From: Desulfoscipio sp. XC116
GTDB taxonomy: Bacteria; Bacillota; Desulfotomaculia; Desulfotomaculales; Desulfallaceae
DNA length: 64,000 nt
Direction of reading: 5' to 3'
Assembly: GCF_039851975.1 (NCBI RefSeq)
Contig: NZ_CP156660.1
Span: 372,001-436,000, forward strand
The notes beneath the pieces are model-generated. The model did not search any database and was not told where the DNA came from. It was given only the letters and a program-made list of their open reading frames with translations. A program made the translations under genes and the position numbers. Below, piece by piece: positions 11,821 through 64,000 of the stretch. Numbering within the stretch: position 1 is the first letter of the stretch; the number at the start of each line of letters is the position of its first letter.

Positions 11821-12561
11821 ATGGGGAGAACGGAACTGCGCGTCGAACTGTTGCAACATACTATAAATCCCGAGCAGCTGGTGGCTTTGGCGGCTAAGCT
11901 TTGTTATTCCTCCGCGGATATAGGAGAACTGCAACAGGGCGTTACTGAGGTAGATCAGTCACTTTTTGTGCGCAAATTAGCCGATATGGGACATTTAACA
12001 CCCATAGAGCATGTCAGCTTTACTTTTGGGGTGGAGGGGGTTTCCCGAAGCCTCTTGGCTCAGATAACCAGGCACAGGATTGCCAGTTTCAGCGTGAAGT
12101 CCCAGCGGTACGTCAGTGAAGACAGTTCTGCTAAAGCAGCTGGTGTATTTAATTATATAATTCCACCGCGCATTGCCGCCTTGGGTGATAACGAAGTGCA
12201 GGAATATGCCGGGCAGATGGCTAAAATACAGCAATGGTATGATCAATGGCTGGAAAAACTGGCTTGCCACGGGGATGCGGCCCGGGAAGACGCCCGGTTT
12301 ATTCTGCCCAATGCCGCCGAAACTAAGCTGGTGGTTACTATGAATGCCCGAGAGCTGTTGCATTTTTTTGCCTTGCGCTGCTGTAACCGGGCACAATGGG
12401 AAATAAGGGCGTTGGCTACGGAAATGCTGCGCTTGGTGCGGCAGGTGGCTCCCGAGCTGTTCCGGGAAGCCGGTCCCGGTTGTCTGACCGGGCCTTGCCC
12501 GGAAGGCGCCATGAGCTGTGGCAGGCAAGCCGAAGTATGCGATAAGTTCCGGAAATTATAG
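11821..12561 (+). CDS. thyX: FAD-dependent thymidylate synthase ThyX
   Basis: Makes dTMP from dUMP with methylene-THF as carbon donor and FADH2 as reductant. The 246-residue protein contains the ThyX signature RHR-x(7)-S (RHRIASFSVKSQRY, about residue 82), and conserved C-terminal NAAETK and ARELLHFFALRCC segments. ATG 11821 has GGGGGA 9 nt upstream; the ORF runs open to 11761 but without a ribosome site. It lies between mrnC and rlmB, a usual place for thyX in clostridia lacking thyA. Confidence 0.95.
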   Translation: MGRTELRVELLQHTINPEQLVALAAKLCYSSADIGELQQGVTEVDQSLFVRKLADMGHLTPIEHVSFTFGVEGVSRSLLAQITRHRIASFSVKSQRYVSEDSSAKAAGVFNYIIPPRIAALGDNEVQEYAGQMAKIQQWYDQWLEKLACHGDAAREDARFILPNAAETKLVVTMNARELLHFFALRCCNRAQWEIRALATEMLRLVRQVAPELFREAGPGCLTGPCPEGAMSCGRQAEVCDKFRKL

Positions 12562-12582
12562 GTACTGGGTGGAGAATTGTCT

Positions 12583-13314
12583 ATGGAGCAAATTGTTGTT
12601 GGACGTAATCCGGTGAGCGAGGCGCTCAGGGCCGGCCGAACCATAAATAAAATATATCTGGCTCGGGATATAAGGTCTGCCGCAACCGCAGATATTATCA
12701 AGCTGGCTAGAGAAAAGCAAGTGCCCGTGCAAAATGTGGCTAAACAAATTTTGGACCGCATGGCGCCCGGTGTGGTTCATCAGGGTGTGATTGCCCAGGT
12801 TGCGCCGTATGCATATGCAGAGCTGGAGGATATTCTGGACGGTATAAAAGACGCTGATCCTTTGCTGATACTGTTGGATGAAGTTACGGACCCGCATAAT
12901 TTAGGGGCCGTCATTCGCTCCGCCGATGCAGCCGGTGCTCACGGGGTGCTTATTCCCAAACGCCGGTCCGCCGCGGTAACTCCGGTGGTTGTTAAGTCCT
13001 CGGCCGGGGCGGTGGAGTTTGTGCCTGTGGCCCGGGTGGTTAATATGGTTCGCACTATTGAATTACTTAAAGAGCGGGGTATCTGGGTGGTAGGTGCGCA
13101 TCCCGATGCGCGGCAATTGGTTTGGGATGCTCCCCTGGCGGGTCCGCTGGCCATAGTAATCGGTGGGGAGGATAAAGGCCTGGGGCGGCTTGTACGGGAA
13201 AAGTGCGATTTATTGGTAAAGTTACCTATGGCCGGTCGGGTTAATTCCCTTAACGCCTCGGTGGCGGCGGCGCTAATTCTGTTTGATGCGGTGCGCCAGA
13301 GAAGTAGGGAATGA
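12583..13314 (+). CDS. rlmB: 23S rRNA 2'-O-ribose methyltransferase RlmB (SpoU family)
   Basis: A 243-residue SPOUT methyltransferase that 2'-O-methylates 23S rRNA (G2251 in E. coli). It has an N-terminal L30e-like substrate-binding domain (VVGRNPVSEALRAG) and the trefoil-knot SPOUT motifs NLGAVIRSADAAG, IGGEDKGL and LPMAGRVNSLNASVA. ATG 12583 follows GGAG by 8 nt; TTG 12577 is too near. The stop is one base before the next gene. TrmH-type tRNA activity cannot be excluded from sequence. Confidence 0.93.
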   Translation: MEQIVVGRNPVSEALRAGRTINKIYLARDIRSAATADIIKLAREKQVPVQNVAKQILDRMAPGVVHQGVIAQVAPYAYAELEDILDGIKDADPLLILLDEVTDPHNLGAVIRSADAAGAHGVLIPKRRSAAVTPVVVKSSAGAVEFVPVARVVNMVRTIELLKERGIWVVGAHPDARQLVWDAPLAGPLAIVIGGEDKGLGRLVREKCDLLVKLPMAGRVNSLNASVAAALILFDAVRQRSRE

Positions 13315-13315
13315 A

Positions 13316-13828
13316 ATGAATGAATACATTCTGGTTGACGGCTATAATATTGTCCATGCCTGGCCGGAATTGGCCGGGCTGAAAGATGAAAGCCTGGAGC
13401 ATGCCCGGGATCGGTTGATAGATATACTGGCTAATTACGCCGGGTTCAGCGGTGACAGAGTGGTGGTGGTTTTTGACGCGCACAGGGTTAAGGGTAATCA
13501 GGAAAGATATGAAGAGACAAATGGAGTGCAGGTATTTTACACCCGGGAAGATGAAACCGCCGATTCTTTAATTGAAAGATTGGTGGGCGATATGCCGAAA
13601 GACGGCAATGTTCATGTGGCCACCTCCGATTGGGATGAGCAAAGGGTTATCTTTGGTCGGGGTGCTTATCGCATGACACCGGGGGAGTTAATGGCGCGGG
13701 TGCGTAAGGCGGGAGAGGAAAATCAGAAGCGATTGGCGCGTAAAGATTATACCGACAGCTATCTGGAAAATCGTCTGGGGGGACATATTCGCCAAATATT
13801 TGAGCAGTGGAGAAGAAAAAAAGATTAG
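13316..13828 (+). CDS. NYN domain ribonuclease (YacP/Rae1 type)
   Basis: A 170-residue PIN-like NYN domain protein. Motifs VDGYNIVHAW (first catalytic Asp), VVVFDAH, and ATSDWDEQRVIFGRGA carry the acidic metal site. Bacillus Rae1 (YacP), in the same place before sigH, cleaves mRNA on the ribosome; equivalence is by family and position. ATG 13316 begins one base after the rlmB stop, with AGGGA upstream. Confidence 0.92.
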   Translation: MNEYILVDGYNIVHAWPELAGLKDESLEHARDRLIDILANYAGFSGDRVVVVFDAHRVKGNQERYEETNGVQVFYTREDETADSLIERLVGDMPKDGNVHVATSDWDEQRVIFGRGAYRMTPGELMARVRKAGEENQKRLARKDYTDSYLENRLGGHIRQIFEQWRRKKD

Positions 13829-53241: not shown

Positions 53242-55155
53242 CTACACTCTAAACTTGACTATCGCATTCTGTAAGTCGTCAGCCAGGTTGGACAGATCCT
53301 GAGCAGCAATAGTTACTTGCTGCATAGTGGAGGCAATTTGCTCATTAGATGCTGATAGCTGCTGTGTATTTTCATTGGCTTGCATTGAACTGGCCGCCAC
53401 GTCTTTAATAATAACCGTATTTCTTTCTATAGCCTCAATTATTTGTTCCAGGGAGGCGCCTGCATTGTCAGCTATATGCACGCCCTCATCCACTTCTTTG
53501 ACCCCGTTTTGTATGGCGCCCACCGCTTCACCAACTCCGATTTGAATATCATTAATTAAGTGAGTAATTTGTGTGGCGGCGCTTGCTGATTGCTCGGCCA
53601 GCTGGCGAACCTCTTCGGCGACAACGGCAAAACCGCGGCCGTATTCACCGGCTCTGGCCGCTTCAATAGCGGCATTTAAAGCCAATAAATTTGTCTGATC
53701 CGCAATATTAGTGATGGTATTAATAATATTACCTATCTGGTTGGATTGTTCGCCAAGCTTTTGGATTGCTTCAGCGACTTTCTGTGACGCCGAGGCAATG
53801 GTATTGATTTTATCAATAGTTTGCTGGACGGCCTGATTACCGTTTCTGGCCAGTTGCTGCACATGCTCCGATTCTTGAGCTGCTTCCAGCGCATTTTCAT
53901 TCTCTTGTGCGGACGTGGCGGCAACTTCATTGGTTGTTCCGGCAACTTCTTCAACTGTAGCGCTGACCTCTTGGCTGGTCGCGGCCAAATCCCGGCTATG
54001 AGAAGATAGCTTATCTGACAGGCTCATTATGTTAGTAACCAGAACCTTAAGACTGTCCACCATTTTTTTGAAATTCATGGTTAGCTGGCTTATTTCGTCT
54101 GTACCTTTGGCATTCACTGTAACAGATAAGTTTCCATCAGCCACATTGGTAGTCAGCGTATTAAGTGTATGCAGGGGGGTCAATGAACGGCGTACCATAA
54201 ACGCAAGGCATAGTATTACTATGGCTATAATAGATATGCTAAGCAGTATGCTCTTTTGGGTCTGCTCGGCTATCGGTTTATCTAATGCTTGCTCGGGTAC
54301 TACCACCCCCATTGACCAATTGGTTAATTTAATAGGGTTATAGAAACAATAGACCATTTCGCCCTTGGATTTGGCCTTGCCCCAACCGTCCTGTCCATCG
54401 ACCATCTTTTTGTAAATGGTGCTCATTTCATCGTTTAATTTTGTTGCGTTAGCCTTCATAGCCAATGATTTATCGGGGTGATTAATAAAAGTACCTTGTT
54501 GATCCAGTAGAAAAGCGTATCCATTTTTATCTGTCTTTGTTTTAGCTATAATATTGTTGATCGTTTCCAAAGATAGATCTACGCCCAGCAGACCAAGGAA
54601 TTTATCATCTTTATAAACGGGAGAGGTAATGGAGACAATAATCTGATTGGAGATTGCGTCCACATAGGGTTCGGAGAAATAAACGCCGTCCACTTTTTTG
54701 CCTTCAGCATAATAAGGACGGTTATCAAGTTGATAATCATCTGGTGCTTCCCATTCAGTCAAATCATAGGGTACTTGACTTTTTTCCGAGTTAAAATAAA
54801 TATTAAAAATGTTGGCGTCTTTATCGGCAAGCTTCCTGGCGGTAGAAAGAAAATTAACGTACTCTTGCTTACCCTTATAAACCGATACGCTGCGTTCGCT
54901 TGTTATGGCAGCAAAATTAACAACATCGCTGGTATTGGAAAGTGCTGTGGATAATCCGGAATATTCATTAAGATAAGATTCAATCTCAGCCGAAGCACGC
55001 TTGGCGGCCTCAAAGTTACTGGTCTCCGTTCCGTTCCAACCCAATCGCTTCATCCAGCTAATATTTTGGGTTATCATAATAACAAAGCCAAACAATACGA
55101 GAACTGTGCAGGGAATTAACAGTTTTGCCAGTATGGAATTTTTATACCATTTCAT
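53242..55155 (-). CDS. Methyl-accepting chemotaxis protein with dCache sensor
   Basis: A 637-residue transmembrane chemoreceptor. TM1 near residues 10-28, a periplasm-facing dCache domain (about 35-280), TM2 near 290-312, HAMP (about 313-365) and a cytoplasmic signalling domain whose hairpin tip reads [19 protein letters not shown]. The sensor contains DNRPYY and EPYVDA, recalling the R-x2-YY and Y-x-D pattern of amino-acid-binding dCache domains. No C-terminal CheR/CheB pentapeptide. ATG after GGAGGAG. Next to an amino-acid oxidation cluster and sharing a possible operator with it. Confidence 0.94.
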
Positions 55156-55660: not shown

Positions 55661-55687
55661 AAACTAATAAGACAGGGGTAAATGTCG

Positions 55688-56419
55688 ATGGATATCAAAC
55701 GTAAAAAAAGGACCCGGCTTTATAGAGAAATAGTGTTGCAGATTAAACAGCTGATACAGGAGGGCTCACTGGCACCCGGTGATCAGTTGCTTCCGGAGAG
55801 GCAACTGGCGGAAAAACTGGGAGTGAGTAGGTCGGCGCTTAGGGAAGCCCTGTCTGCATTGGATTCTATGGGATTAATAGAGATAACTCCCGGTGGCGGG
55901 GCTTATATCAGGAAGATTGGCGTGGAAAGCGTGATTGAACCATTGGCCGGGATCATGTTAAAAGAAAAGGAAAGCGTTTTTGATTTACTTGAGGCCAGAA
56001 AGATATTAGAGGTGGAGATAGTCAAGCTGGCAGCTGAAAGAGCAAGTAAATCCGATCTCTACCAGATAAGGGAAGCAGCCACGGATATGTACAATGATGT
56101 TCAAAATAACCGCAATGCCGACGAGTCAGATGTGAATTTTCACCTTTCCATAGCTCAGGCTACGCAAAATTCGGTTTTGTATGACATAATGGTTATGTTA
56201 TCCGGGTTGATGAAGGAAGCTTATGGGCCAAGTCGCAGGGAATTGTTAAAAGGCCCCATTAAGATATGGTGTGAGCAGAATTTTCAGATGTATGAAGCCA
56301 TAAAGAATAAAGACCCTAAAGCTGCGGCTCAAATTATCAAGGAACATTTGCAAATAGCCGAAGATGAGCTTAAAAGGTTGATGCATGTTCAGGAAAACAA
56401 CGGCGATCAATCTGTATAA
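55688..56419 (+). CDS. FadR-subfamily GntR transcriptional regulator
   Basis: A 243-residue regulator. The N-terminal winged helix-turn-helix (LYREIVLQIKQLIQEGSLAPGDQLLPER, then LGVSRSALREAL) is of GntR type; the C-terminal all-helical FCD domain binds a small acid, with metal-site candidates in ARKILEVEIVKLAAER and DVNFHLSIAQ. FadR/FCD members are usually ligand-released repressors of amino-acid or carboxylate catabolism. ATG 55688 is 9 nt after AGGGG; ATG 55682 is in frame. Three nearby ATTGG-N5-CCA sites are its likely targets. Two terminators follow. Confidence 0.92.
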   Translation: MDIKRKKRTRLYREIVLQIKQLIQEGSLAPGDQLLPERQLAEKLGVSRSALREALSALDSMGLIEITPGGGAYIRKIGVESVIEPLAGIMLKEKESVFDLLEARKILEVEIVKLAAERASKSDLYQIREAATDMYNDVQNNRNADESDVNFHLSIAQATQNSVLYDIMVMLSGLMKEAYGPSRRELLKGPIKIWCEQNFQMYEAIKNKDPKAAAQIIKEHLQIAEDELKRLMHVQENNGDQSV

Positions 56420-56707: not shown

Positions 56708-56724
56708 AATTGGTCATACCATTG
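56708..56724. promoter_or_regulatory. Candidate FadR-type operator before the NSS transporter
   Basis: AATTGGTCATACCATTG, core TGGTCATACCA, 164 bp upstream of the transporter start. The same core recurs at 58650-58660. A further inverted repeat CATACCAAAGGTATG follows at 56737-56751. Confidence 0.65.
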
Positions 56725-56887: not shown

Positions 56888-58363
56888 ATGTTAGGAGAAC
56901 AACGTGAAGAATGGAGCAGCCGGGTTAGTTATATCTTAGCGGCTATGAGTATGGCTGTCGGCACCGGTAATATATGGCGTTTTCCAAGAATGGTTGCGGA
57001 AAATGGCGGGGGTTCGTTTTTAATTGGCTGGGCTATTTTCCTGTTTTTGTGGTCTTTCCCTTTAGTTATGCTGGAAATGGCCATGGGACGAAAAACAAGA
57101 ATGGGTACCCTGGGTTCTTTTAGAGAATTTATCGGTCAAAAATACACCTGGATGGGTGCGGTCATTGCCTGGGTTACTATATCCATCACCTTTTACTATT
57201 CGGTACTGGTAGGTTGGACTTACAAATACGCCGTGCTGGCACTGAGCGGTACTTTTAACAATAAGGGGTTGGATACCAACCTTCTTTATAAAACTTTCAC
57301 CGCCGATGCTACACAAACAATTACTTTCCATTTCCTGGCCATTGTTAGCACTGGAATAATTGTCTACTTTGGTGTAAAAAAGGGTATTGAAAGAGCTAGT
57401 TCAATATTGTTGCCTGCTCTGATTATTTTATTGATTGTTGCAGTGGTTAAATCGCTAAGCCTGGAAGGTGCCATGGGCGGTGTAGCTTATATGTTTACAC
57501 CCGACTGGTCTTATTTAACCAAGGCCAATACCTGGCTGGAGGCGCTTTCTCAATCAGCCTGGTCCGTGGGAGCCGGCTGGGGTCTTTATGCCACTTATGC
57601 AATATATACCAGGGAAAAAGAAGATATAGCCCAAAACACGTTTACAGCCGGTTTTGGCAACAATAGCGTTGAGCTATTGGCCGGTCTGGCCATTATACCG
57701 GCGGTATTTGCGCTGGCACCTTCCCCGGAATATATGCATGAAGCGATGAGTTCCGGTAACTACGGTTTAACATTTGTTTATATGGCTCAATTGTTTACGC
57801 AAATGACCGGCGGTTTATTCATGAGCATTATATTCTTTGTGGCTCTCGCTTTTGCTGCCGTAACTACTTTGATAGCCATGGTGGAACTTGTTACCAGAAT
57901 CCTGATGGATTTTGGTATAGAGCGGCGCAAGGCTATTGTTTGGGTGGTTGCTGTATGCTTTGTAATGGGTATTCCCTCGGCAATAAGCATTGACTTTTTA
58001 GGTAACCAGGATTGGGTCTGGGGTATCGGCCTATTGGTAGGATGCATGTTCTATGCCATAGCCGCCGCGAAATATGGCATAGAAAAGATAGCCAAAGAGG
58101 AAATTGATGCGGTTAGCGATATAAAAGTAGCCAAATACTGGATGTTCACTATTAAATATTGTGTTCCTGTAATATTTGTGGCGTTTTTGAGTTGGTGGGC
58201 TTACCAATCAATTATATGGTATCCGGATACCTGGTGGAACCCCAAGGAAATATTTGGTTTGGGAACCATTGTGGTGCAGGTTGCTTTTGCGGTATTGGTA
58301 ACCCGTGCTTTGAACAATTGGTTTAATAAAAAAATTAAAAGCCCGTCGGATGTTTTGAAATAG
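56888..58363 (+). CDS. Sodium-dependent amino-acid transporter (NSS/SNF family)
   Basis: A 491-residue LeuT-fold symporter with about 11-12 transmembrane segments. The TM1 unwound region AVGTGNIWRFPRMVAENGGG holds sodium- and substrate-site residues as in LeuT; TM6 region is SVGAGWGLYATYA. Family members import neutral amino acids (Leu, Met, Ala, Trp) with sodium. ATG follows TAGGGGGAG. A 35-residue membrane ORF follows after 28 bp, as in MetP-MetS pairs. Substrate unknown; the neighbouring dehydrogenase operon suggests an amino or imino acid. Confidence 0.94.
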   Translation: MLGEQREEWSSRVSYILAAMSMAVGTGNIWRFPRMVAENGGGSFLIGWAIFLFLWSFPLVMLEMAMGRKTRMGTLGSFREFIGQKYTWMGAVIAWVTISITFYYSVLVGWTYKYAVLALSGTFNNKGLDTNLLYKTFTADATQTITFHFLAIVSTGIIVYFGVKKGIERASSILLPALIILLIVAVVKSLSLEGAMGGVAYMFTPDWSYLTKANTWLEALSQSAWSVGAGWGLYATYAIYTREKEDIAQNTFTAGFGNNSVELLAGLAIIPAVFALAPSPEYMHEAMSSGNYGLTFVYMAQLFTQMTGGLFMSIIFFVALAFAAVTTLIAMVELVTRILMDFGIERRKAIVWVVAVCFVMGIPSAISIDFLGNQDWVWGIGLLVGCMFYAIAAAKYGIEKIAKEEIDAVSDIKVAKYWMFTIKYCVPVIFVAFLSWWAYQSIIWYPDTWWNPKEIFGLGTIVVQVAFAVLVTRALNNWFNKKIKSPSDVLK

Positions 58364-58391
58364 ACAGTGCCCAATTAAGGGGGAAGTTGTA

Positions 58392-58499
58392 ATGGAAAAA
58401 GAGTTTACCGCCGTAACCATAACAATGATGGTTGTGGTGCTGAGTACATTCTTTGGTGGCTTTTTGTATTTCATCTCCAAGGCGTTAAGGAATAAGTAG
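58392..58499 (+). CDS. Small single-TM protein, MetS-like transporter partner
   Basis: A 35-residue protein, too short for usual gene calling. It starts at ATG after AAGGGGGAAG and consists of a short acidic head (MEKEFT), one transmembrane helix (about residues 7-28) and a basic tail (KALRNK). Its place directly after an NSS transporter matches the small subunits (MetS type) required by some bacterial NSS carriers. Function by analogy. Confidence 0.8.
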   Translation: MEKEFTAVTITMMVVVLSTFFGGFLYFISKALRNK

Positions 58500-58546
58500 C
58501 ATACAATTAATGTTGCCCGGATCTTACAAAATAAAATAATAATTAG

Positions 58547-58631
58547 AAATATTTATTGGCAGAAGGAAACGGGAAGAAAATAACGAATCATACTACAGTA
58601 AACCACCGGTCTGGCCAATAAATATTTTTTT
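58547..58631 (+). terminator. Long-loop inverted repeat with T run
   Basis: AAATATTTATTGGC (58547-58560) is an exact complement of 58614-58627; a run of seven T overlaps the end. The 53-nt interior makes it a possible conditional terminator for the transporter transcript. Confidence 0.55.
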
Positions 58632-58647
58632 AACATATCTGGTCTCA

Positions 58648-58664
58648 GTTGGTCATACCAATTG
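58648..58664. promoter_or_regulatory. Candidate FadR-type operator before the dehydrogenase operon
   Basis: GTTGGTCATACCAATTG, with perfect TTGGT-CAT-ACCAA symmetry. Both this and the 56708 site are followed by CAGATTTG, so the conserved block extends beyond the palindrome. Confidence 0.7.
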
Positions 58665-58730
58665 CAGATTTGTTGTTTAGACATTCATGCTGTTTGCATG
58701 GCACCTAGAGGATGAAAATTAGCTTAGTTT

Positions 58731-58825
58731 GTTATGGCGAGTAGCGAAGTGGTCTGGGGCAATCCCATGTTGGAGTGTTTACGCAGCTTGGGATTGCTTC
58801 GCTTGCGCCCGCGCTCGCAATGACA
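58731..58825. repeat. Dispersed palindromic repeat, copy B
   Basis: Starts GTTATGGCGAGTAGCGAAG and ends GCTCGCAATGACAG, with GGCAATCCCA and TGGGATTGCTTCGC inside as inverted arms. A REP/MITE-like intergenic element, better preserved than copy A. Confidence 0.75.
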
Positions 58826-58898
58826 GTTGAAAAGCATACCGGAAAAGCAGCTTGAGCTTTTTCAGGATGGTATGGTACATAAAAGAGGGGGGTAAAAA

Positions 58899-59213
58899 TT
58901 GAGAATTGAGCAGCACCCTATCTTGGATTTTGAAAAGGGTAAAAAAGTCAAGTTTCTTTTTGACGGCAAAGAAATGGAAGGATATGAGGGAGAGCCTATA
59001 GCTGCCGCTCTGCATGCAGCGGGGGTCAGGGTTTTAAGTCATAGTCATAAAAAGAACCGCCCCAGGGGCTTTTATTGCGCTATTGGCAACTGCTCATCAT
59101 GCTTGATGACTGTTGATGGCACACCCAATGTGCGCGTATGTGTAGAAAAGCTTAAAGAAGGCATGCGCGTGGAAACGCAAAAGGGGAGAGGTGAGTTAAT
59201 TGCTAAAGACTGA
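58899..59213 (+). CDS. 2Fe-2S ferredoxin-like subunit (HcnA/SoxA-like)
   Basis: A 104-residue small subunit of a flavin dehydrogenase complex. A ubiquitin-like 2Fe-2S fold is indicated by FLFDGKEMEGYEGEPIAAALHAAG and the ligands C-x5-C-x2-C (CAIGNCSSC) and a fourth C about 13 residues on (VRVC). TTG start after GAGGGGGGTAAAAA. The 3' end overlaps the next gene by 14 bp. In HcnABC, opine oxidase and proline dehydrogenase complexes this subunit carries electrons between flavin sites. Confidence 0.9.
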   Translation: MRIEQHPILDFEKGKKVKFLFDGKEMEGYEGEPIAAALHAAGVRVLSHSHKKNRPRGFYCAIGNCSSCLMTVDGTPNVRVCVEKLKEGMRVETQKGRGELIAKD

Positions 59214-60276
59214 TATAGTTGTTATCGGCGCGGGACCGGCAGGCCTAAACGCGGCTATCAGCGCGGCTTCCATGGGAGCTAAGGTAGTAATTGTCGAGCG
59301 GGATGATTTTGTAGGCGGCCAATTAGTGAAGCAAACTCACAAATTTTTTGGTTCCAAGGAACAATATGCATCCATACGCGGTATTGATATAGCCCAAATT
59401 CTTTATGAACAAATTAAGGGGCTTAATAACATTACTGTGCAATTAGGCGCAACTGTTTTAGGATATTTTGAAGATAACGCCATTATGGTCGAGGATAAGC
59501 ACGGTGTTACCACTATCAAAGCAGACAGATATATCATTGCTACCGGGGCGGCCGAAAAAGTGCTTCCCTTCCCGAACAATGATTTGCCCGGCATATACGG
59601 AGCCGGTGCGGTGCAAACATTAACCAATGTGCATGGTGTGTTGCCCGGTCAAAGAGTGCTTATGGTGGGGTCCGGAAACATTGGTTTGATAGTTAGTTAC
59701 CAGCTGATGCAGGCGGGCGTTAAAGTAGTTGGTATCGTGGAGGCGGCTCCCAATATAGGCGGCTATCTTGTGCACGCCGCTAAAATCAGAAGAGCCGGTG
59801 TGCCTATTTATACTTCCCATACTATTAAAGAAGCGTATGGTGCCGATGCCGTCAAGGGTGCCGTTATCTGGCGGTTGGACGAAAACTGGCAGCCGGTTGA
59901 AGGCTCGGAAAAGGATATTAAAGCTGATGTTATTTGCGTTGCGGTAGGCTTAACTCCGCTGACGGAACTGCTCTGGCAGGCCGGCTGCAAAATGAAGTTT
60001 ATACCCCAACTGGGGGGACATGTACCGGTCAGGGATGATAATTTAATGACCGACAATCCCGGTATATACGTAGCCGGTGATGTAAGCGGCGTGGAGGAAG
60101 CCAGTGCCGCTATGGTGGAAGGAAAGCTCGCCGGTCTCACGGCCGCACATAGCCTTGGCTATGCCAAAGATAACTATGACGAACTGCGTGACGCGGCTGT
60201 AAAGCAACTGGCCGGTCTGCGTTCCGGTCCTGCCGGAGAGAAAATACGCAGTGGTATAAAAATGTTGGTTGGTTAG
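59200..60276 (+). CDS. FAD/NAD(P)-binding oxidoreductase subunit (HcnB-like)
   Basis: A 358-residue pyridine-nucleotide-disulfide-fold flavoprotein. First dinucleotide motif VVIGAGPAGLNAAISAA (FAD), second VLMVGSGNIGLIVSYQL (NAD or second cofactor), and C-terminal FAD motif TDNPGIYVAGDVSG. It lacks the redox CxxC of thioredoxin reductase. TTG start after GGGGAGAGGTG, coupled to the upstream ferredoxin gene. Likely the electron-transfer subunit of the complex. Confidence 0.9.
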   Translation: MLKTDIVVIGAGPAGLNAAISAASMGAKVVIVERDDFVGGQLVKQTHKFFGSKEQYASIRGIDIAQILYEQIKGLNNITVQLGATVLGYFEDNAIMVEDKHGVTTIKADRYIIATGAAEKVLPFPNNDLPGIYGAGAVQTLTNVHGVLPGQRVLMVGSGNIGLIVSYQLMQAGVKVVGIVEAAPNIGGYLVHAAKIRRAGVPIYTSHTIKEAYGADAVKGAVIWRLDENWQPVEGSEKDIKADVICVAVGLTPLTELLWQAGCKMKFIPQLGGHVPVRDDNLMTDNPGIYVAGDVSGVEEASAAMVEGKLAGLTAAHSLGYAKDNYDELRDAAVKQLAGLRSGPAGEKIRSGIKMLVG

Positions 60277-60291
60277 AAAGAGGGGGGCAGC

Positions 60292-60780
60292 ATGCTTATT
60301 AAAACAGGTGTACCGACAGCGGAAGATATCAGCGCGGTTACCCCGTCCCAACAAAGATTGGCAAAGGGACCGGTGGCCATGATTGAATGTTTTCAAAAAA
60401 TTCCTTGCAACCCGTGTTATTTATCCTGCCGGCAGGGAGCAATACAGGAATTTGCCGATATCAACGACCTTCCCCGGATAGATGAGAGTAAGTGTAACGG
60501 GTGTGGTATTTGCGTGGCTAATTGTCCGGGGCTGGCCATTTTTGTGGTGGATTATACCTACTCGGATGACGAGGGTTTAGTTAAAATTCCATATGAATAC
60601 CTGCCCGTTCCCGGGGTGGACAGCGAGGTAACGGCCTTGGACCGGGAAGGGAAGGCGGTGGGTGCGGCACGGGTGGTTAAAGTACAGCGCATTAAAGGGC
60701 AAGAACGCACACCGGTTATCTGGCTGGCCGTGCCTAAGGAACTGGTAATGTCCGTTAGAAATATTAGGGTTGGGGGTTAG
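60292..60780 (+). CDS. 4Fe-4S dicluster subunit
   Basis: A 162-residue iron-sulfur protein. Two cysteine sets are visible: CFQKIPCNPCYLSC (residues about 34-47) and the classical CNGCGICVANCPG (about 69-81), enough for two 4Fe-4S clusters. The C-terminal half has no recognisable domain. ATG after GAGGGGGGCAGC, 15 bp after the flavoprotein. This extra subunit is absent from HcnABC and suggests delivery of electrons to low-potential carriers. Confidence 0.88.
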   Translation: MLIKTGVPTAEDISAVTPSQQRLAKGPVAMIECFQKIPCNPCYLSCRQGAIQEFADINDLPRIDESKCNGCGICVANCPGLAIFVVDYTYSDDEGLVKIPYEYLPVPGVDSEVTALDREGKAVGAARVVKVQRIKGQERTPVIWLAVPKELVMSVRNIRVGG

Positions 60781-60784
60781 ATCG

Positions 60785-61060
60785 ATGCCTGATAAAACTA
60801 TCGTCTGTCGTTGTGAAGACCTGAGCCTGCAAGAGATCAGGGATTTAATAGATAAAGGTTATAAAACTATTGATGAGCTTAAAAGAATAAGTCGTTGCGG
60901 CATGGGTCCATGCCAAGGCAGAAACTGCCGGCAAATAGTAGCCCAGGAGATTGCCAAGGCAACCGGACAAAAGTTGGAGGACGTACAAATGCCTAAATTC
61001 CGGCCGCCGGTAAAGCCTGTGGAGCTAGGTAAGCTGTTGGGTGGTGAAGAGGATGCGTAA
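60785..61060 (+). CDS. BFD-like [2Fe-2S] binding protein
   Basis: A 91-residue protein with the BFD-type ligands: CRCEDLSLQEI at the N terminus and CGMGPCQGRNC about 35 residues on. Such domains are often fused to the HcnB-type subunit; here it is a separate gene. ATG 60785 is preferred over in-frame codons upstream on ribosome-site spacing. It overlaps the next gene by 8 bp. Confidence 0.88.
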   Translation: MPDKTIVCRCEDLSLQEIRDLIDKGYKTIDELKRISRCGMGPCQGRNCRQIVAQEIAKATGQKLEDVQMPKFRPPVKPVELGKLLGGEEDA

Positions 61061-62207
61061 GTCGGCTAATGTTGTTGTTATTGGCGGCGGTATCCACGGG
61101 TGTTCCATAGCTTATAACCTGGCAAAAAAAGGTTTTAAAGATGTGGTGCTGCTGGAAAAAAATCATCTGGCCAGTTGCGGTACGGGCCGTTCGGCAGCCG
61201 GTATCCGGCACCAATTCGGCACCGAAATCAACATTCGCCTGGCTGCCACCAGTGTTAAGATGATGGAAAATCTGGCGGAAGAACTGGATTATCCCCGGGG
61301 CATAGACCTCATGCAGGGCGGTTATATGATGCTGGCTTATACGGAAAGCCAGTTGGAACAGTTCCGAGAGAACGCGGAGATGCAAAATTCGTTAATGAAT
61401 GCCGGAACCCGGATTTTAACCGTGGCTGAAGCGGCGGAGATTGTTAAGGGACTGAATACGGAAGGTCTTCTAGGCGCCTCATTTAATAAAAGAGACGGTC
61501 ACATTGACCCGTTTCATGCCACCCAGGCTTATGCCGATGCAGCCAAACGATTGGGCGTGGAAATATACACCAGAACTGAAGTGGTGGATATAAAAACCGG
61601 CGGCGGTAAGGTTACCGGAGTAGTCACCGACCAGGGTGATGTGATTGATACCGGGGTCGTTGTTAATGCAGCCGGGCCTTATGGCGCTATAGTAGGTAAA
61701 ATGGTGGGCCTTGACATACCGCTTTATCCGGAAAGGCACCATATAGCGGTCACAGAGCCGTTGGAAATGTTTTTACCCTGTATGGTCATCTCTTTTACCC
61801 ACGGCACGTATTTTAAACAAACTCCCCACGGCAGCTTACTGTTGGGTGTAGGGGATCCCGAACACGAGGTTAAAGATTTCAATTATGAATCCACCTGGCA
61901 ATTCCTCAAGGATGTAGCTCAAAAAAATATTTATCACTTGCCCATATTAAAGAAAGTTAAAGTGGTGCGGACGTGGGCCGGCCTTTATGATATGACACCG
62001 GATTCCCAGGCTATTTTAGGGAAAACCGATGTTGGCGGATTCTTCCTTGATATAGGATGGAGCGGTCACGGCCTGCAGCTGGGGCCGGTAGTAGGTAAAA
62101 TAATGGCGCAGGTAATTGCCGGTGAAACACCGGATATTGATATAACAGTAATGAGTTTGGATAGGTTTAGAACCGGAAAATTGATTCCGGAACCGGCTTG
62201 TGTCTAA
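61053..62207 (+). CDS. FAD-dependent amino/imino-acid dehydrogenase (DAO family, HcnC-like)
   Basis: The 384-residue catalytic subunit of the complex. DAO-family features are the N-terminal FAD motif VVVIGGGIHGCSIAYNLAKKG, the conserved GTGRSAAGIRHQF loop, and the C-terminal WSGHGLQLGPVVGKIMA. Relatives include sarcosine oxidase beta, glycine oxidase, HcnC and archaeal L-proline dehydrogenase, which oxidise secondary or primary amines at carbon alpha. ATG 61053 is preceded by GGTGGTGAAGAGG. The exact substrate cannot be read from sequence. Confidence 0.9.
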   Translation: MRKSANVVVIGGGIHGCSIAYNLAKKGFKDVVLLEKNHLASCGTGRSAAGIRHQFGTEINIRLAATSVKMMENLAEELDYPRGIDLMQGGYMMLAYTESQLEQFRENAEMQNSLMNAGTRILTVAEAAEIVKGLNTEGLLGASFNKRDGHIDPFHATQAYADAAKRLGVEIYTRTEVVDIKTGGGKVTGVVTDQGDVIDTGVVVNAAGPYGAIVGKMVGLDIPLYPERHHIAVTEPLEMFLPCMVISFTHGTYFKQTPHGSLLLGVGDPEHEVKDFNYESTWQFLKDVAQKNIYHLPILKKVKVVRTWAGLYDMTPDSQAILGKTDVGGFFLDIGWSGHGLQLGPVVGKIMAQVIAGETPDIDITVMSLDRFRTGKLIPEPACV

Positions 62208-62386: not shown

Positions 62387-62424
62387 TGCAAAGTGGTTGG
62401 GTAAGGGGGCCTGACCACTTTGCA
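62387..62424. promoter_or_regulatory. Perfect inverted repeat in the gdh leader
   Basis: TGCAAAGTGGT (62387-62397) and ACCACTTTGCA (62414-62424) are exact complements with a 16-base interval containing the AAGGGGG ribosome-site-like run. It could be an operator or an RNA hairpin. It is not the ATTGG-N5-CCA site. Confidence 0.65.
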
Positions 62425-62452
62425 AATTAATATGATGGGGGTCGCTGCTGAA

Positions 62453-63703
62453 ATGAAAGAAACGGCATGGGAAATAGCGCTCATACAACTGGCCGAGGCT
62501 GCCAAAATTGCCGGCTTAAGCCGGGAAACGACGGAAATGCTTAGCGAGCCGCAAAGGGTACTTATTGTTAATTTCCCTGTCAGATTGGAGAACGGGTCAA
62601 CCAAGTTTTTTACCGGTTATCGGATACACCACAATCATGCTTTGGGGCAGATACAGGGCGGTACTCGTTTTAGCCCCGATGAGACATTGGAAGATGTTAA
62701 GGCGCTGGCGCTGTGGATGACGGTAAAGAATTCCCTTAACGGCATTCCGGCGGGTGGCGGTAAAGGCGGTGTTCAATGCGACCCCGGCACACTTACACGC
62801 CAAGAGTTGGAACGGGTATGCCGGGCTTACATCAGGGCTATTGCTCCCCTAATCGGCCCCGGCGTTGATTTTCCGGGTGCTGATATAGGTACCGGCCCGG
62901 ATACGCAAAGTTGGATGCTTGACGAGTGGGAGCAAATTCATTCTTTGCGGCATGAGCCTTCGGCTATTAGCGGTAAATCTATTGCACTGGGCGGTTCACA
63001 GGGTAGATCCGCGGCCACGGGATTGGGCGTTGGCCTGGCCGTTCGGGAAACCTGCCGTCATACCGGCCGGGATATTAAAAAATTAAGTGTAGCTATTCAG
63101 GGATATGGCAAAGTAGGCTCTTGGTCCGCCCGTACGCTGGAGAGTTTCGAGGCTAAAATTGTGGCGGTAAGTGACGTTCATGGCGCGATTTACCGGGAAG
63201 AAGGATTTAGTGCGGCAGAACTGGATGCGTATATTAAACAAAATAATACACTGGCCGGCATACCCGGCTCAACTGTTATTAATAATGAAGAGCTTCTGAC
63301 CTGCCCGTGCGATGTGTTGGTTCCCGCCGCCGTTCAAGGAGTTATTACAGATAATATTGCAATGGATGTAAAGGCCCAAATAATTGTTGAGGGAGCCAAC
63401 GGGCCGACTACTCCCAGCGCTGAAAAAATTCTTGAAAAACGCGGTGTGCTGGTAGTGCCGGATATACTTGCCAATGGCGGGGGCACGGTAATTGCCTACC
63501 TGGAACGGGTTCAAGGTATTTACGGATACTACTGGGTGGAAAGTGAAGTGCACCAAAAGTTTGATAACTTATTTACAGAAACCTTTAAAGTTGTTTATGA
63601 AACATCCCGGCAAAAAGGCATTAGCATGCGTATGGCGGCATGGGTAAGAGCCTTGCGCAGGGTAGAGGAAGCTATGATAGCCCGAGGCTGGACTCAAGCT
63701 TAA
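62453..63703 (+). CDS. Glu/Leu/Phe/Val dehydrogenase family protein
   Basis: A 416-residue NAD(P)-dependent amino-acid dehydrogenase interconverting an amino acid and its 2-oxoacid plus ammonia. The substrate lysines lie in ALWMTVKNSLNGIPAGGGKGG; the catalytic Asp lies in GVDFPGADIGTG; the Rossmann motif is IQGYGKVGSWSA. The IPAGGGKGG and DFPGAD wording differs from ordinary GDH (PFGGAKGG, DIPAPD), so glutamate specificity is not certain. ATG 62453 has GGGGG 11 nt upstream; TTG 62420 has AAGGGGG 10 nt upstream and is the main alternative. Confidence 0.88.
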   Translation: MKETAWEIALIQLAEAAKIAGLSRETTEMLSEPQRVLIVNFPVRLENGSTKFFTGYRIHHNHALGQIQGGTRFSPDETLEDVKALALWMTVKNSLNGIPAGGGKGGVQCDPGTLTRQELERVCRAYIRAIAPLIGPGVDFPGADIGTGPDTQSWMLDEWEQIHSLRHEPSAISGKSIALGGSQGRSAATGLGVGLAVRETCRHTGRDIKKLSVAIQGYGKVGSWSARTLESFEAKIVAVSDVHGAIYREEGFSAAELDAYIKQNNTLAGIPGSTVINNEELLTCPCDVLVPAAVQGVITDNIAMDVKAQIIVEGANGPTTPSAEKILEKRGVLVVPDILANGGGTVIAYLERVQGIYGYYWVESEVHQKFDNLFTETFKVVYETSRQKGISMRMAAWVRALRRVEEAMIARGWTQA

Positions 63704-63736: not shown

Positions 63737-64000
63737 GTGCAAACAAAACTGTTACAGGGCAACCAGGCCATGGCGGAAGCGGCTATATACGCAGGCGCCA
63801 GATTTTACGCAGGGTACCCGATAACACCATCCTCCGAAATTGCGGAGGAAAGCGCCAGACTGCTTCCTAAAGTAGGCGGCGTCTATGTACAGATGGAGGA
63901 TGAGATAGGCAGCATCGGTGCCATTGTCGGCGCATCGCTGGCCGGCGCCAAATCCTATACTGCCACCAGCGGTCCCGGATTTTCGCTGATGCAGGAAAAC
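63737..64000 (+). CDS. korA: 2-oxoacid:ferredoxin oxidoreductase subunit alpha (3' truncated)
   Basis: The first 88 residues of a 2-oxoacid oxidoreductase alpha subunit, cut by the window end. The Pyr-fold N terminus (LLQGNQAMAEAAIYAG, YAGYPITPSSEIAE, QMEDEIGSIGAIVGASLAG, TATSGPGFSLM) is characteristic of KorA/VorB. GTG 63737 follows GGGGGAT, 33 bp after the gdh-like gene. It would oxidise a 2-oxoacid to its acyl-CoA with ferredoxin as acceptor, a logical partner for the dehydrogenase upstream. 2-Oxoglutarate versus branched-chain specificity is open. Confidence 0.88.
   Translation, partial: MQTKLLQGNQAMAEAAIYAGARFYAGYPITPSSEIAEESARLLPKVGGVYVQMEDEIGSIGAIVGASLAGAKSYTATSGPGFSLMQEN

Follow-up and report, generated by a model that had tools for sequence, protein, structure and literature searches.

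Within a 64,000-nucleotide stretch of the Desulfoscipio sp. XC116 genome (contig NZ_CP156660.1, positions 372,001 to 436,000; hereafter the window), five adjoining forward-strand genes at 58899–62207 encode a 2Fe-2S protein, an HcnB-like flavoprotein, an eight-cysteine 4Fe-4S protein, a BFD protein and a DAO-family dehydrogenase. Successive genes are spaced by −14, 15, 4 and −8 bp. An earlier note on this DNA described five tightly packed genes in this order with overlaps of 14 and 8 bp, and the gene calls and Pfam matches bear this out. The module is a split bacterial variant of the described archaeal PdhAFXB type of L-proline dehydrogenase, present in many anaerobes and not unprecedented. 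We also describe a probable pipecolate role for the clade that contains the window copy, supported by a small predicted regulon.

Subunits of the module and their described relatives

Domain scores are given as Pfam or NCBIfam profile matches; the Pfam families of the five module genes all exceed their cut-offs. The first gene (58899–59213, TTG start) encodes the 2Fe-2S subunit (Fer2_4; PF13510, 108 bits), which corresponds to the N-terminal part of the proline dehydrogenase (PDH) alpha subunit and finds its best solved match in residues 10–88 of 1y56_A, the alpha chain of Pyrococcus horikoshii PDH1. The second (59200–60276, TTG start) encodes an HcnB/SoxA-like FAD subunit of 358 amino acids (aa) with two GxGxxG motifs (PF07992, 139 bits) and without a Fer2_BFD domain. 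It corresponds to the middle part of PDH alpha. Its solved-structure matches are 1vrq_A, 2gag_A and 1y56_A, with residues 109–262 of the last scoring 70.8 bits and sarcosine oxidase alpha slightly more (75.9 bits). The fourth gene (60785–61060), in the position of PdhX, encodes a BFD-like 2Fe-2S subunit (PF04324, 41.7 bits; PF17806, 52.9 bits) that matches residues 413–490 of 1y56_A (E = 3e-11). Because these three proteins match successive parts of 1y56_A, the one alpha chain of PDH1 corresponds to three genes here.

The third gene (60292–60780; PF13237, 31 bits; PF00037, 30 bits) encodes the 4Fe-4S subunit. To compare it with relatives, genome contigs were scanned with an alignment of this protein, which gave 142 relatives; the counts below refer to the best 80 loci. 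Cysteines 33, 39, 42, 46, 68, 71, 74 and 78 are kept in 80 of 80 rows (the window and 79 loci), which makes a dicluster protein plausible. The AlphaFold model (pLDDT 92) combines a ferredoxin-like part with a beta part at the C-terminus. A fold search returned no PDB match at E ≤ 0.001, the best being 57 columns of 7q4v_B (HydABC hydrogenase) at E = 0.05. In the model, then, the ferredoxin-like part alone appears recognisable, and the C-terminal beta part has no clear solved match. By simple hydropathy none of the five subunits has a convincing membrane helix; a 19-residue stretch of the 4Fe-4S protein peaks at 1.68.

The fifth gene (61053–62207; PF01266, 255 bits) encodes the putative catalytic FAD subunit, a PdhB-like member of the DAO family. 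Its best solved match is 1y56_B, the beta chain of PDH1 (E = 3.7e-68), followed by sarcosine oxidase beta (6e-43). It contains RTW within VVRTWAGLYD, an R-x-W motif that marks a putative FMN site, and GGGIHG, a GxGxxG motif. R-x-W followed by A/G and G occurs in 63 of 83 DAO open reading frames (ORFs), and GxGxxG in all 83. In the flavoprotein, the second site GxGNIG is kept in 79 of 79 rows, with Glu or Asp ending the next strand in 78 of them, a pattern compatible with NAD or ATP binding.

The accessible text of PMC4364671 assigns OCC_00347, 00342, 00337 and 00332 of Thermococcus litoralis to the alpha, gamma, delta and beta subunits of an L-proline dehydrogenase and likens them to pdhA, pdhF, pdhX and pdhB of T. 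profundus. The window shares with this alpha-beta-gamma-delta enzyme the order alpha, gamma, delta, beta (pdhA-F-X-B), a DAO-family beta subunit, and a BFD-like delta subunit that has its own gene and is similar to the C-terminus of PH1363. A table legend in the part of PMC4575208 at hand states that a delta subunit, which we read as that of T. profundus, resembles the C-terminal 90 residues of P. horikoshii alpha; the same part lets the N-terminal 120 residues of L-proline dehydrogenase alpha correspond to opine dehydrogenase gamma. The earlier note took the 4Fe-4S subunit to be an addition to known systems, a claim that is not well supported, since the Thermococcus enzyme already has a separate gamma subunit (pdhF) between alpha and the BFD-like delta (excerpts of PMC4364671 and PMC4575208).

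The window differs from the Thermococcus enzyme in that alpha is split into overlapping 2Fe-2S and flavoprotein genes, in being bacterial and in its probable substrate, pipecolate. Thermococcus PdhF is a ferredoxin-like protein, and the window 4Fe-4S gene occupies the place of pdhF between alpha and delta. The earlier note had allowed that homologues of all five subunits might already be characterised together; a set of the same layout is indeed known, with L-proline as substrate, the likeness of the 4Fe-4S protein to PdhF being one of gene position and not of alignment.

Three other enzyme types were considered and set aside. PDH1 of P. horikoshii (1Y56, alpha4beta4) has the DAO beta chain that best matches the window protein and alpha parts that match in succession; it differs in carrying the three parts on one 493-aa chain and, in the accessible text of PMC4364671, in having two kinds of subunit only. 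The window lacks this layout of one fused alpha chain and a single beta chain. HcnABC, D-hydroxyproline dehydrogenase and opine dehydrogenase (alpha4beta4gamma4) likewise combine a 2Fe-2S gamma, an FAD alpha and a DAO-family beta subunit with R-x-W, as described in part of PMC4575208, but place a second 2Fe-2S motif inside alpha and have three subunits, whereas the window has a separate BFD gene and an extra 4Fe-4S gene. Membership in heterotetrameric sarcosine oxidase was rejected on profile scores far below cut-off (soxB TIGR01373, 202 vs 529; soxA TIGR01372, 161.8 vs 1164).

Conservation of the module and the clade of the window copy

The five-gene arrangement is conserved far beyond chance. 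All five ORFs are adjacent (less than 300 bp apart) and in the same order in 68 of the 80 loci. In seven of the other 12, four ORFs were recognised, side by side and in the usual order (BFD is fused to the 4Fe-4S ORF in five of these, and a contig end cuts two). Spacing or frame is broken in L057 and L064, which do contain all five, the DAO gene leads in L111 and L115, and the 4Fe-4S ORF of L125 was not recognised. The 4Fe-4S and BFD proteins are fused into one ORF of 254–261 aa in seven loci (L049, L068, L070, L076, L111, L115 and L117), a fusion that speaks for a physical complex. Most of the loci are from Bacillota, with others from Atribacterota, Calditrichota and Synergistota. A plasmid search matched 189 records, all below 60% identity, the best reaching 33.9% among the 40 matches listed. 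In two Syntrophomonadaceae loci the DAO gene is immediately followed by a gene for a 265-aa protein, similar in both (L054:3182-3979 and L056:10401-11198); for the L056 copy Pfam gave no match at 1e-8.

Many related copies are followed by a gene for the oxidation of an aldehyde. A strong 1-pyrroline-5-carboxylate (P5C) dehydrogenase, 50–100% identical to two references (one of them the protein of L087 itself), is present in 9 of the 80 loci. A close aldehyde:ferredoxin oxidoreductase (AOR), at 51–72% identity, is present in 21 (L049, L055, L057-L059, L063, L070, L073-L075, L078, L080-L083, L085, L093, L098, L101, L111 and L118), in most of them preceded by a small Fe-S protein. These counts leave out weak AOR (L051, L067, L123) and weak P5C dehydrogenase matches (L050, L051, L104), all at 28–31%. 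No locus has both enzymes, and the other 50 have neither at that level in the stretches examined, some of which are short. All but three of the 30 genes (the exceptions being L057, L111 and L118) begin within 750 bp behind a DAO gene. On the DAO tree, P5C dehydrogenase and AOR have been exchanged at least seven times among 29 labelled rows, a count that omits L057 with its two DAOs and includes L058 of the window clade. Sister copies from Desulfotruncus illustrate the exchange, L085 with AOR and L087 with P5C dehydrogenase. As the two enzymes exchange at the same place, we read AOR as a stand-in for P5C dehydrogenase, one that may use ferredoxin in the oxidation of glutamate semialdehyde. Outside the window clade, the copies would thus appear to be mainly proline dehydrogenases, and AOR in place of P5C dehydrogenase beside them would save low-potential electrons.

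The phylogeny of the catalytic subunit that the earlier note had called for places the window DAO in a separate clade of nine rows, with support of 100/100 in a carefully built tree of 42 selected rows and an SH-aLRT value of 100 in a quick tree of 82 rows. None of the nine has a P5C dehydrogenase directly behind it, and the clade is separate from all nine copies with a strong P5C dehydrogenase. Eight or more of the nine clade rows share, at 17 positions, a residue that differs from the one kept in at least 75% of the 34 labelled outside rows; for example, K255 (9/9) stands against Q (34/34), and Q342 (9/9) against M (34/34). These 34 rows are those labelled with P5C dehydrogenase or AOR, including four weak matches and two with the Fe-S protein only; the labels of the quick tree still include the weak-match loci L050, L051, L067 and L123 and the Fe-S-protein-only loci L079 and L125. 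A histidine aligned with what we take to be the covalent-FMN histidine of sarcosine oxidase beta was dropped as a clade marker: it is present in all nine clade rows, but also in some proline-linked copies.

Clade DAOs and outside DAOs can occur in one genome, as in those of L048 (second copy L085), L057 and L089 and in genome G068. In L057 (1374-2522 and 14896-16086), G078 (L139) and G068 (L138), a window-type DAO stands apart from electron-transfer genes, with a DAO outside the clade on the same stretch in L057 and nearby in G068 (L117). Electron-transfer subunits are possibly shared between DAOs. We liken these separated clade DAOs to the 'subunit exchange' that the part of PMC4575208 at hand reports for opine dehydrogenases.

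Gene row, predicted regulon and P6C dehydrogenase

The window genome (G000; 4.26 Mb, two contigs) was compared with G007 and G008, of the same family, and G028, of the same order. Upstream of the module, all on the forward strand, lie a GntR-family FCD regulator (55682–56419; PF00392, 66 bits; PF07729, 84.6 bits), predicted to control the module and 75–82% identical to regulators adjoining related genes in G007, G008 and G028, and an NSS-family sodium-dependent transporter (56888–58363; PF00209, 199.6 bits), the gene at which the earlier note began its system. The transporter has a 72% identical copy in a G008 cassette. Between it and the module we find a gene absent from the earlier note, for a MetS-like small NSS subunit of 35 aa with one hydrophobic stretch (58392–58499; NF033493, 20.6 bits, cut-off 25); a 66% identical copy follows NSS in G008. 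The row is also longer than had been described. A glutamate-dehydrogenase-like ELFV dehydrogenase (62420–63703, TTG start; PF00208, 230 bits; NF040817, 439 bits, cut-off 750) starts 212 bp past the DAO gene, and KorA, the alpha subunit of a 2-oxoacid:ferredoxin oxidoreductase (63737–64000; NF006412, 521 bits, cut-off 411), runs past the window end; beyond it the genome continues with KorB, KorG and a class I/II aminotransferase. Promoter-like and terminator-like sites departed from shuffled sequence by less than one standard deviation. Upstream of the regulator, by eye from its translation, the reverse strand encodes a large methyl-accepting-chemotaxis-like protein (53242–55155). Elsewhere in G000, a UxaA-like gene pair occurs twice, in opposite orientation, within 14 kb (L203:2859-4313 and 12102-13556), the first 85 residues of each gene being the same in both copies.

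Predicted GntR operators lie upstream of NSS (AATTGGTCATACCATTG, 56708–56724) and of the module (AGTTGGTCATACCAATT, 58647–58663). Both are similar to AATTGGTnnnACCAATT, the PdhR box of another GntR-family regulator given in part of PMC7660256, and the GntR protein of the window would bind them. The pattern ATTGGTNNNACCA has 15 copies in the genome, ten inside ORFs and five intergenic. All five intergenic copies precede NSS, the module, a gene for a piperideine-6-carboxylate (P6C) dehydrogenase (about 70 bp before it) or a second DAO gene, here called DAO' (two sites); the two DAO' sites count as intergenic on a homology-based start, as a longer in-frame ORF would cover them. In G007 and G028 the same site stands before P6C dehydrogenase, the module and an ABC binding protein; in G008 it stands before P6C dehydrogenase, NSS, DAO' and OCD/DMT. 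Across the 78 loci L049-L126, a slightly looser pattern gave 11 such sites in 1.29 Mb. This shared operator-like site is the strongest single reason for placing the module and P6C dehydrogenase in one pathway.

The P6C dehydrogenase is an ALDH7 gene at G000:C1:346447-347988, about 83 kb before the module, which scores 801 bits (cut-off 730) with NF050084 (L-piperidine-6-carboxylate dehydrogenase). It is 79% identical to the ALDH7 type of G007 and G028, which itself scores 800 against the cut-off of 730. In G007 and G028 one gene row holds a LIV-type ABC transporter, an OCD-family reductase, a DMT transporter, ALDH7, GntR, the module and Kor genes, the last coming after glutamate dehydrogenase and others in G028. 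P6C dehydrogenase exceeds the cut-off in 4 of 113 genomes of the class: in all three that have a DAO of at least 82% identity, vs 1 of the 110 others (G008). In G008 a second, partial ALDH7-like frame (L137:10677-11171, 84%) stands beside the full gene.

The L-pipecolate route of Pseudomonas consists of AmaA and AmaB (model names NF050086 and NF050084). The window genome shares with it an AmaB-type P6C dehydrogenase, here predicted to be co-regulated with the module; the routes differ in their first enzyme, the AmaA oxidase there and a multi-subunit dehydrogenase as proposed here.

DAO' (L029:7101-8294, that is G000:C1:2794115-2795287, and L031:8441-9634) is 91% identical between G000 and G008 and 33–34% identical to the window DAO. 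In G008, which has the same GntR-NSS-MetS-glutamate dehydrogenase cassette, it takes the place of the five-gene module.

Proposed pathway and alternatives

The earlier note proposed the oxidation of an amino or imino acid by an HcnABC- or PDH-like complex after uptake by NSS. This is well supported by the sequence, and the substrate can now be narrowed to a cyclic imino acid, the best candidate being L-pipecolate. Pipecolate is converted to P6C by the same chemistry that turns proline into P5C, on a ring with one more carbon. We propose, with moderate confidence, that the module is an L-pipecolate dehydrogenase complex feeding 2-aminoadipate, an aminotransferase and a 2-oxoacid:ferredoxin oxidoreductase. 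The five genes would form a soluble FAD/FMN/Fe-S dehydrogenase of the PdhAFXB type with a split alpha. L-Pipecolate would be imported by NSS and oxidised by the DAO subunit to P6C, at the ring carbon that flanks nitrogen opposite the carboxylate-bearing carbon, as in proline dehydrogenase. The ALDH7-type dehydrogenase, predicted to be co-regulated, would then yield 2-aminoadipate. From this, two enzymes encoded in the module's own row, the aminotransferase and glutamate dehydrogenase, would form 2-oxoadipate, and KorABG glutaryl-CoA and reduced ferredoxin, although the substrate specificity of Kor is not readable from sequence.

Electrons would pass from FMN at the alpha-beta interface to [2Fe-2S] and [4Fe-4S] centres and on to some acceptor, for which the earlier note named ferredoxin or menaquinone. 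The potential of proline/P5C lies near −0.12 V and that of ferredoxin near −0.4 V, which makes ferredoxin an unlikely acceptor on its own; menaquinone is feasible, and no membrane subunit for such a route was found among the genes considered. A bolder idea, to which we give little credence, is an oxygen-independent lysine/pipecolate route in strict anaerobes, in which the NAD-type Rossmann site and the dicluster protein would couple high-potential imino-acid electrons and ferredoxin electrons to reduce NAD (confurcation). If true, this would explain the kept 4Fe-4S and BFD subunits and their frequent placement beside AOR or Kor.

Several observations weigh against the pipecolate assignment. 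The pattern ATTGGTNNNACCA is not over-represented, with 15 sites vs 17 for a reversed control, and DAO' shares the predicted regulon and could itself be the partner of P6C dehydrogenase. The name of the latter rests on a profile, not a protein assay. The module does not belong to the AmaA L-pipecolate oxidases (NF050086, 74.8 bits vs a cut-off of 600), and in the clade loci L057, L058 and G078 there is the close AOR known from proline-type loci. Distribution is imperfect as well: 8 of 10 genomes behind loci with a DAO of at least 60% identity lack P6C dehydrogenase (several are metagenome bins), as do G068 and G078 with their 68% DAOs, and G008 has the enzyme without a window-type DAO (at E 1e-130 or better). 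Downstream, glutaryl-CoA dehydrogenase NF045552 falls below its cut-off in G000 (407 vs 470 bits) and is not over it in G008 either; 28 of the 113 genomes of the class pass this cut-off, including G007, G028, G068 and G078. Finally, no OCD-family protein in G000 reaches its cut-off (19.3 vs 24), so pipecolate would come from outside or by another route.

A plain L-proline dehydrogenase, as in Thermococcus, is what the family-level match to PDH would suggest. Proline would yield P5C/glutamate semialdehyde and then glutamate, for use by glutamate dehydrogenase and KorABG as a 2-oxoglutarate:ferredoxin oxidoreductase, and the presence of glutamate dehydrogenase and Kor genes suits such glutamate catabolism. 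P5C dehydrogenase or close AOR in 30 of 80 loci, two of which (L057 and L058) have a window-clade DAO, also speaks for proline. We nevertheless find proline unlikely as the substrate of the window copy. Its clade is apart from every copy with a strong P5C dehydrogenase; no P5C dehydrogenase adjoins the module, and no AOR was found in the genome at E 0.001. The genome also encodes a complete 1004-aa PutA (PF18083, PF01619, PF00171) with its own P5C dehydrogenase, so proline is already provided for, and the intergenic operator-like sites lie at P6C dehydrogenase, not at PutA. On the grounds of PutA and the separate clade, proline was rejected as a strong claim. Another substrate of the sarcosine oxidase/HcnC superfamily, be it an N-methyl amino acid, a D-amino acid, hydroxyproline or an opine-like compound, we likewise hold to be improbable. 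The best NCBIfam subfamily of the window DAO is indeed soxB, at the score given above, and specificity can shift, Bradyrhizobium opine dehydrogenase type 2 lying near the archaeal L-proline dehydrogenase clade (available part of PMC4575208). Yet ALDH7 or AOR stands beside or is predicted to be co-regulated with five of the nine clade rows (the window, L047, L048, L057 and L058), which fits the opening of a cyclic imine, and by eye no sarcosine, opine or D-amino-acid genes adjoin the module, a reading of the neighbourhood without a search aimed at them.

The single-subunit DAO' offers a further alternative: it would be the partner of P6C dehydrogenase, and the module would act alongside it, within one regulon, on an unrelated substrate. 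Two operator-like sites precede DAO', and in G008, which has P6C dehydrogenase and no window-type module, DAO' stands with NSS, an Fe-S protein, AOR and glutamate dehydrogenase. In G007 and G028, however, the module, GntR and P6C dehydrogenase adjoin, with operator-like sites before both module and dehydrogenase. Moreover, G007 has three matches at 1e-40 to the window DAO, namely the one in its module, a proline-type copy and L022 (32% to DAO'), and none of them is a close DAO'. We therefore think this arrangement very improbable and retain L-pipecolate as the preferred substrate of the module.

The exchange of AOR and P5C dehydrogenase beside proline-type copies is, like the probable pipecolate role of the window clade, presented here as new; in the open-licence papers searched we found none on either. 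Together these results tie to cyclic imino acids a gene set that readily receives a sarcosine oxidase name and that occurs in many Bacillota and some Atribacterota. The module is a testable candidate for anaerobic use of pipecolate or lysine, and the entry of proline-level electrons into anaerobic metabolism becomes a direct experimental question.

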